This document shows positions 536 through 10,722 of a stretch of 64,000 nucleotides of DNA, piece by piece. The DNA is from Amphiura filiformis (Eukaryota > Echinodermata > Ophiuroidea > Amphilepidida > Amphiuridae), in contig NC_092646.1 in assembly GCF_039555335.1 (NCBI RefSeq), forward strand, positions 22,132,258 through 22,196,257. The letters are read 5' to 3'. Positions within the stretch are counted from its first letter, which is position 1, and each line of letters opens with the position of its first letter. The translations under genes and the position numbers were made by a program. The notes beneath the pieces are model-generated. The model was not told the origin of the DNA. It worked only from the letters and a program-made list of their open reading frames with translations, and ran no database searches.

Positions 536-709
536 GTGTTCAGAAATCATCCACCAAAGCCTATACATCTTGGACAATAATATCAATTGCTATGGGAGTT
601 GTTATATTGCTAGTTGGAGTTACAGTAGGAGCTGTATTATCACCAGTTATCTTCAGGAAGATAATTACAGCTGATAATTACAAGACATATTTTAGTCGTA
701 GCGATCATG
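536..709 (+). CDS. Gene A exon: transmembrane segment
   Basis: The acceptor is TTTCAG before 536 and the donor GTATGA follows 709; the phase is 1 to 1. About 23 hydrophobic residues (ISIAMGVVILLVGVTVGAVL) are followed by S-P-x-x-F-R-K, a basic stop-transfer signal. The same pattern, G-x-V-L-S-P-(x)-F-R-K, is found in the membrane exon of gene C at 52293-52538, which ties A and C together as a subtype. Confidence 0.85.
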
Positions 710-9700: not shown

Positions 9701-10722
9701 GTAATGATCCGCAATTCATGGAAGTGCATATTAAACATATCATGAGACCGTCATCCCTATCTGCTAACGGGATCGGGATCCGGCAATTGCAAACAGCTGC
9801 TCCCGGGGAAGCAACAGCTACTGTGACGGAATCTCATACCAATAATTCAGATCGATCCGAACGAACTCCTTCAACTTCAGCTCATGTAAATGCAAATACA
9901 ACAGCTGCGTCTGTGAGCTACTGCAACGATGAGAGTGGTAGGTGAAGGTATATTGGTCCGGGGCATATATTGCATGTGTATTTTATAAACGTGCAGATGT
10001 TTTTTATTATTATTATTTATCACTTTTATTGCTATCATTATTAGTAGTAGTACAATTTTTATTATTATTATTATTATTAATATTAATTATTATTATTATC
10101 ATTATTTTTACCATTATTATTATTAGTAGTAGTAATAGTAGTAGTAGTAGTAGTAGTAGTAGTAGTAGTAGTAGTAGTAGTAGTAGTAGTTTAGGAGCTA
10201 CGTATACCTGTAATAAACACGTGGGAAAAGGGTCGGATTTTCGCCATCAGACGCCGTTTTGGGAATCAGGGGTTTCACCACTGTAAATCGCCTTATTTAT
10301 TTATTTATTTATTTATTTATTTATTTATTTATTTATTTATTTATTTATTTATTTATTTATTTATTTATTTATTTATTTATTTATTTATTTATTTATTTAT
10401 TTATTTATTTTCAGGTGATCAGCTTCGAAATCAAGTTCAGATATTTCAGTTAATTCTGGATGATGCTGCTGATGTCCTCTACACTAACCTCAATCCAAAC
10501 AATATTGTTAAGAGACTCACATCCAGAGGGATTCTGAATGACGTCGAGGTCGCTGACATTACAAACATACAAGGACTTGGAGAGAGGGTCAAGATGCTAG
10601 TAGCAATTCTCAAAACAAAAGACGTCAAGGCATACGATGAGTTCATGAGTGCGTTACGTGAATTCGATCATGTTGTATACCGTGAAGTTAAAATAATGGA
10701 AAGGAAATACCCACGTAAATGA
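536..10722 (+). CDS. Gene A (3' part): transmembrane receptor with ZU5-UPA-CARD cytoplasmic region
   Basis: Six exons join in phase: 536-709, 3116-3484, 6505-6722, 7537-7695, 9583-9937, 10415-10722, giving 526 residues and a stop. In order they encode a transmembrane helix, a ZU5 domain, a UPA domain, a Ser/Thr/Asn-rich linker and a CARD. Every border has AG/GT. ZU5 and UPA were recognised by matching the order of conserved strands to UNC5-family proteins (a Gly-Gly turn and SGALTES-like loop, a mid-domain Trp, then the UPA Val-Tyr and Trp positions). The first exon starts in phase 1, so an ectodomain must lie before the window. By comparison with gene C, whose membrane exon is similar, that ectodomain is probably TNFR-like. 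Known roles of these domains: CARD recruits caspases or adaptors, and ZU5-UPA holds a death-fold domain in check or undergoes self-cleavage. A signalling receptor at the membrane is my inference. The domain calls are firm; the exact 3' end of exon 3 is less so. Confidence 0.85.
1447..2491. mobile_element. Mariner-like inverted-repeat element (1,045 bp) with TA duplication
   Basis: The ends read CAGGGTGTCCCAGAAAAAAT and its inverse complement, flanked by TA at 1445-1446 and 2492-2493. Similarity between arms extends inward, including a shared stretch near GACTTACGTCC and GATTCTGATGTC. No intact transposase ORF is present, so this is a decayed or non-autonomous copy in the first intron of gene A. 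Confidence 0.8.
2814..2887 (+). repeat. tRNA-derived SINE head (tRNA-Ala-like)
   Basis: The A box TAGCTCAGTGGTTAGAG with a D-arm GCTC/GAGC pair and an anticodon stem CTCGC/GCGAG closing a seven-base loop CACGCAA are visible. The B box GATTCAAGTC is degenerate and the T-arm does not pair. It is therefore a SINE or tRNA pseudogene, not a working tRNA. Confidence 0.55.
3116..3484 (+). CDS. Gene A exon: first part of ZU5 domain
   Basis: The acceptor is TTTATAG and the donor G|GTTAGT; the phase is 1 to 1. The exon holds a short juxtamembrane acidic region and then the ZU5 N-terminal half: VIGPQGGCLGV, VQLDIPSGALTES and the strand VTLTVKHAAVG match the ZU5 pattern G-G-x-L, L-x-I-P-x-G-A-x and V-x-L-x-x-x-H. 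The ORF stops 3 nt beyond the donor, so splicing is required to complete the domain. Confidence 0.88.
3648..4261. mobile_element. Inverted-repeat MITE, copy 1
   Basis: The left end AAACATCTCAAAAAAGTAA with a C-run and TTAAATAATGGCCATTATT is repeated inverted at the right end (AATAATGACCATTATTTAAG ... TGAGATGTTTA). A second copy with the same ends and interior lies at 58586-59059. No ORF is seen. It is inside the intron between the membrane exon and the ZU5-2 exon of gene A. Confidence 0.75.
4445..5422. mobile_element. Inverted-repeat element with GGGGGACCACAGGTC ends
   Basis: The 15-base end GGGGGACCACAGGTC at 4445 recurs inverted, ending at 5422. The interior of about 950 bp is AT-rich without a clear coding frame. 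It is probably a non-autonomous DNA transposon in a gene A intron. Confidence 0.55.
6505..6722 (+). CDS. Gene A exon: end of ZU5, HFC site, start of UPA
   Basis: A strong polypyrimidine tract and TCTCAG precede 6505. Read in phase 1, the exon gives a Trp (KWQRF), then VIQIRPTHFCIWCFVG. This lines up with the last ZU5 strands, where UNC5 proteins read Leu-Ser-Thr-Tyr and self-cleaving relatives read His-Phe-Ser. UPA follows (LRVKILPF ... IELIVYAL). The donor is either AAG|GTAATG after 6722, chosen here, or GAT|GTAAAG after 6716. Both keep the frame and differ by two residues. Confidence 0.82.
6588..6596 (+). other. Candidate ZU5 self-cleavage site His-Phe-Cys
   Basis: The codons CAT TTC TGC in the last ZU5 strand of gene A sit where NLRP1, CARD8 and PIDD1 have His-Phe-Ser and cut themselves between Phe and Ser. 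Here the nucleophile position is Cys, which could in principle support the same acyl shift. The position comes from alignment by eye; cleavage itself is inference. Confidence 0.5.
7537..7695 (+). CDS. Gene A exon: middle of UPA domain
   Basis: The acceptor is TTTGCAG and the donor CAG|GTATGC; the phase is 0 to 0, giving 53 residues. It contains the segment after the Val-Tyr strand of UPA (DVEDTMKKKDNILCL) and the later LEIGLKDV ... MENVWNV, where UNC5 UPA has a conserved Trp. It fits exactly between the flanking UPA exons. Confidence 0.85.
7696..9582 (+). other. Gene A intron without recognised feature
   Basis: AT-rich sequence with a T-run at 7760-7812. At 8405-8500 there is a loose tandem repeat of a TTTTGGCATTTGTC-like unit, about four degenerate copies. 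I find no exon here that fits the phase of the flanking exons. Confidence 0.5.
9583..9937 (+). CDS. Gene A exon: end of UPA and Ser/Thr-rich linker
   Basis: The acceptor is TTTTTCAG and the donor AGTG|GTAGGT; the phase is 0 to 1. The first 40 residues are the final UPA strands (ACCRFDLTA, GTLTVQRK). About 75 residues of low-complexity sequence rich in Thr, Ser, Ala and Asn follow and form a flexible spacer before the CARD. A second possible donor four bases later would break the frame into the CARD exon. Confidence 0.8.
10121..10190 (+). repeat. (TAG)n microsatellite
   Basis: A run of TAG triplets follows a (TTA)n-rich stretch from about 10003. It lies in the last intron of gene A, upstream of the CARD exon. 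Confidence 0.9.
10292..10411 (+). repeat. (TTTA)n microsatellite abutting the CARD exon acceptor
   Basis: About 30 copies of TTTA run without interruption to within three bases of the AG acceptor at 10413-10414. The array is the whole pyrimidine-rich tract for the exon that carries the CARD. Confidence 0.9.
10415..10722 (+). CDS. Gene A terminal exon: CARD domain and stop
   Basis: The acceptor TTTTCAG lies at the very end of a (TTTA)n array. The exon encodes 102 residues with the six-helix CARD pattern: LRNQVQIFQLILDDAADVLY (H1), NNIVKRLTSRGIL (H2-H3 with a CARD-type R-G-I-L), DVEVADI (H3/H4), GERVKMLVAILKTK (H4), KAYDEFMSALREF (H5, close to the A-F-x-x-F-x-x-A-L-R-E motif) and a basic C-terminus. 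The TGA stop is at 10720-10722. The CARD call rests on the helix-5 motif and the overall pattern. Confidence 0.85.

Follow-up and report, generated by a model that had tools for sequence, protein, structure and literature searches.

A probable Amphiura filiformis receptor gene with a TNFR-like ectodomain and a ZU5-CARD cytoplasmic tail

Can a single gene of the ophiuroid Amphiura filiformis place a ZU5-CARD tail behind the ectodomain of a cell surface receptor? This question was raised by a sequence-only reading of a 64,000-nucleotide stretch of contig NC_092646.1 (the window), which described a membrane helix, ZU5, UPA, and CARD in one in-phase series of exons at 536 to 10722. From the sequence and annotation, the locus probably belongs to a TNFR-like surface receptor gene whose product has a cytoplasmic tail of ZU5, a divergent UPA, and CARD. 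When the joined exons were searched against proteins, all 526 residues, from all six window exons, matched a single annotated A. filiformis protein at 100% identity: P0001, which is uncharacterised and 668 amino acids long. From N to C terminus, P0001 has a cysteine-rich ectodomain that is TNFR-like, then a membrane helix, ZU5, and finally a CARD. The window locus is the 3′ part of the gene; the remaining upstream exons lie outside the window, and the ectodomain, which they encode, was read from the annotated protein.

The six exons lie on the forward strand, with canonical splice borders and mutually compatible phases, and all are open. The membrane-helix exon (536 to 709) is entered and left in phase 1, as is the ZU5 exon (3116 to 3484). 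The third exon (6505 to 6722; phase 1 in, 0 out) encodes the last part of ZU5, then the HF-C junction and the beginning of a putative UPA; its His-Phe-Cys codons (6588 to 6596) sit where FIIND proteins have their autocleavage motif and are aligned with the HFS of another protein, P0007. The middle exon of the putative UPA (7537 to 7695; phase 0 in and out) is aligned across five A. filiformis family members and has no UPA profile match. It is followed by an exon with the end of the putative UPA and a variable linker (9583 to 9937; phase 0 in, 1 out) and by the CARD exon, which includes the stop codon (10415 to 10722). These exons stay open against a background of 1 stop per 16 triplets, and the stretches just upstream of the acceptors are 60 to 90% pyrimidines. 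The intron before the ZU5 exon holds a 208-bp inverted repeat (1444 to 1651 and 2287 to 2494; 80% alike), which looks like a small mobile element, and a tRNA-like match at 2810 to 2882, possibly a SINE (29.6 bits, gathering score 29; ARAGORN makes no call there). A 243-bp repeat, 93% identical between its copies, occurs in an intron of the ZU5-CARD gene (4019 to 4261) and just before a TNFR-like gene near the window end (58817 to 59059).

The sequence-only reading had guessed that the ectodomain would be TNFR-like, and the annotated protein bears this out. All 12 PDB matches of P0001 residues 1 to 142 were TNF receptors, 9 of them DR5 entries, at weak scores (best E value, 0.013), and Pfam TNFR_c6 reached 17.1 bits, under the cut-off of 29.4. 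The ectodomain is 85% identical over 132 amino acids to that of P0008, the product of a neighbouring gene, which likewise stayed under this cut-off (17.7 bits). The P0008 ectodomain matched TNFRSF21 at an E value of 4e-5, covering residues 8 to 159 of the 162-residue query, and 12 of its 13 PDB matches were TNF receptors, the remaining one being an alcohol dehydrogenase at 1.6. TNFR-type cysteine-rich repeats are thus present in P0001, judging from the similarity to P0008 together with the PDB matches, those of P0001 by itself being weak. No Ig or TSP1 domain was found in P0001 by Pfam scan, and a search with its residues 1 to 215 returned P0001 and P0008 only.

Nine forward-strand exons within the window (41662 to 54308) reproduce P0008 letter for letter: 41662 to 41721, 44520 to 45137, 45510 to 45673, 47491 to 47587, 48984 to 49116, 50110 to 50289, 52293 to 52538 (membrane exon), 52886 to 52930, and 54250 to 54308. 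The tail of P0008 is short (some 34 residues) and RG-rich, a Pfam scan found no ZU5 in the protein, and P0008 is possibly a decoy-type receptor. Because its membrane exon is related to the one at 536 to 709 (44% over 36 amino acids; E value, 4.6e-4) and has the same phase-1/phase-1 borders, the latter belongs with the TNFR part. A further TNFR-like gene lies on the reverse strand (35757 to 29634), with cysteine-rich matches at 35757 to 35644, 35021 to 34920, and 34374 to 34243; its open frame at 30149 to 29634 includes a hydrophobic stretch. The fourth, on the forward strand (59376 to 63903), has a membrane exon (63400 to 63903) that by eye resembles that of the reverse-strand gene, and it probably extends beyond the window end. 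Up to that end, tblastn found no second TNFR-like gene with a ZU5-CARD tail in the 64-kb window. Open frames judged by eye to be reverse-transcriptase-like lie at 26171 to 27715 (reverse strand) and 12199 to 13301 (forward strand).

The decisive junction is that between donor 709 and acceptor 3116. Here we consider it likely that the membrane and ZU5-CARD exons belong to one gene; that exons 536 to 709 and 3116 to 3484 share a transcript is taken from the annotation, which may be computed. The phases of donor and acceptor fit, and P0001 as a single annotated protein covers both parts. It is unlikely, in comparison, that the annotation has fused a short-tailed TNFR-like receptor, such as the neighbouring P0008, to a separate soluble ZU5-UPA-CARD gene of the kind that encodes the related proteins P0002 and P0005, although several observations would fit such a pair. 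The frame of the membrane exon continues open beyond its donor to a stop at 811 to 813, in-frame ATGs lie upstream of the ZU5 exon at 3010 and 3046, P0002, P0003, and P0005 have no membrane helix, and P0002 and P0005 begin 17 and 29 residues ahead of their ZU5 match. The tail of P0008, however, found no match in the intron from 709 to 3116 at E values up to 1, which is a weak test for a tail of this length.

Less probable still is that the fused locus is real but is decaying, or that its product, without a signal peptide, does not reach the surface; the locus would then be a pseudogene or encode a protein of internal membranes. By sequence and hydrophobicity scan, the N terminus of P0001 is not hydrophobic and has no leader-like stretch at the model start, the helix at residues 163 to 181 is the sole strong hydrophobic stretch of the protein, and the initial Met corresponds to a Met internal to a cysteine-rich exon of P0008 reading ...CDMCMAPTYM. 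Yet P0008 itself starts with a hydrophobic, leader-like stretch, the model start of P0001 may be too short, its upstream exons being off the window, and the six window exons are all open with intact splice sites.

For the tail of the proposed single-gene receptor, profile searches confirmed ZU5 and CARD but not UPA. ZU5 scored 46.4 bits in Pfam (cut-off, 21), and its exon matched ankyrin-2 (E value, 4e-13) and UNC5B (1.3e-5) in the PDB. None of the five family members matched Pfam UPA, the region compared with PDB profiles gave only unrelated proteins (E values, 1.1 and 1.5), and structure models had pLDDT below 50 over most (P0001) or all (P0002) of it. Fold matches of this low-confidence part were mixed (GOLD domain, viral capsids, and glycosidases) and were disregarded; the absence of UNC5B and the NLRP1 FIIND from the 50 fold matches listed per query is uninformative on UPA, as CARD fills most of these. 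The region is nevertheless likely, but unproven, to be a UPA, on the basis of its position after ZU5, its conservation in alignment across the five A. filiformis members, strands predicted at low confidence, and the junction, which aligns with the HFS of P0007, a distant ZU5 protein (probability of 96.7 for the alignment from ZU5 to the junction; 0.1 for the UPA part alone). Of the in-phase series originally described, then, the helix, ZU5, CARD, and exon phases stand, joined in P0001, while UPA goes unrecognised by profile or confident model. The accompanying description of a FIIND-CARD module fared similarly: ZU5 and CARD are there, but the F-S cleavage motif with its serine nucleophile is absent from P0001, with Cys at the Ser position. 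The junction reads HFC in P0001, P0003, and P0004, HCC in P0005, and HFS in P0002 only. The idea that a His precedes the nucleophile by exactly 27 residues, the NLRP1 spacing (H942/S969), was rejected: the distance is 29 in P0001 and 26 in P0002.

The last exon encodes a CARD according to both Pfam (PF00619) and the six-helix CARD fold; the fold matches listed for this region are CARDs, except for two not named so. In whole-protein Pfam scans, two of the five family members passed the CARD cut-off, and P0005 gave no CARD at E values up to 1. A wrong CARD call in what would be an UNC5-like receptor with a death domain, a reading prompted by the ankyrin and UNC5B structure matches and by UNC5 being a membrane receptor carrying ZU5-UPA, is very improbable, since the Pfam tables of the window tail and the P0001 family give CARD and no death domain, the listed folds agree apart from those two rows, and P0001 has neither Ig nor TSP1.

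Each of two tail searches listed seven proteins, among them the five from A. filiformis (P0001 to P0005). P0002 to P0005 share the tail at 51 to 53% identity over 84 to 87% of the query, and these four of the five members have no membrane helix by hydrophobicity scan. P0004, from a contig of different listed length, combines RING, B-box, ZU5, a UPA-like region, and CARD in one protein of 875 amino acids (Pfam) and is a further output fusion of the same ZU5-UPA-CARD tail family. No protein from other species with a TNFR-TM-ZU5-CARD build was among the matches listed (scoring covered the 7998 and 7999 candidates that shared the most exact words). Among 58 pattern matches to the tail family in the IMG/VR viral collection there was no relative, and PADLOC and NCBIfam gave nothing relevant.

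NLRP1 and CARD8 are cytosolic sensors, whereas UNC5 and UNC5CL end in a death domain, the UNC5 ectodomain being Ig/TSP1 rather than TNFR-like and its tail thought to work by clustering and opening. In TNF receptors, the tail has a death domain or TRAF motifs. The window gene shares a membrane-attached ZU5 in the tail with the UNC5 netrin receptors and UNC5CL but has CARD in place of the death domain, and it shares ectodomain similarity with the TNF receptor superfamily (TNFRSF21/DR6 and DR5) but differs in its ZU5-CARD tail. P0002 to P0005 have the tail in common with P0001 and lack its helix, with RING and B-box in front in P0004. As in NLRP1 and CARD8, ZU5 is followed by a C-terminal CARD, here with the putative UPA between them and with HF-C where those proteins have SF-S (PMC3210808); the differences are the helix and TNFR-like repeats ahead of ZU5, Cys instead of the cleavage Ser, and a UPA unrecognised by profile. 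The cDNA-supported amphioxus TNFR-caspase hybrid is likewise a TNFR ectodomain of an invertebrate deuterostome fused to a cell-death module, but it carries the caspase itself (PMC2575513) instead of a recruiting CARD behind a ZU5 block.

We infer the topology, ligand, opening, and downstream partner of the receptor as follows. A ligand would cluster the TNFR-like ectodomain, the ZU5-UPA block would then let go of the CARD, and the clustered CARDs would nucleate a CARD assembly, to which a caspase or adaptor with its own CARD would be recruited. In NLRP1, ZU5 keeps UPA-CARD from oligomerising for as long as the N-terminal part is present (PMC8081665). D'Osualdo et al. showed that CARD8 and NLRP1 are cut at SF-S and that Ser-to-Ala abolishes cleavage; in autoproteolytic proteins generally, Ser, Thr, or Cys may be the nucleophile (PMC3210808). 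With HFC in P0001 and HFS only in P0002, therefore, either Cys works as the nucleophile at HF-C or the tail is no longer cut and acts by clustering and opening, and we favour clustering. It seems doubtful that the tail is a cysteine-type FIIND that cuts itself at HF-C via an N-S acyl shift and remains non-covalently bound under the membrane until ligand binding or receptor turnover frees UPA-CARD for inflammasome-like assembly; if it is, an extracellular ligand would be read out through the NLRP1/CARD8 release mechanism.

Judged by title, the open-licence papers listed in literature searches include no TNFR-ZU5-CARD receptor and none on a FIIND protein with a Ser-to-Cys change, and none was listed on UNC5CL with autoproteolysis. 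By term counts, words beginning ZU5, CARD, or TNF do not occur in the main text of the A. filiformis genome paper (PMC11310086). Fusions of FIIND or UPA-ZU5 with TRADD-N proteins have been described (PMC8195603), and since these fusions and the amphioxus TNFR-caspase already show such shuffling, the TNFR-ZU5-CARD build is a variant and not a new category. Should the junction prove real, the gene would wire a TNFR-type ectodomain directly to ZU5-CARD, without the adaptor steps that connect death receptors to CARD platforms, and ZU5-CARD would be an exchangeable output cassette, with membrane receptor, no-helix, and RING/B-box forms within one species. The presence of HFS, HFC, and HCC versions in one genome provides a natural test of Cys-for-Ser in FIIND autocleavage.
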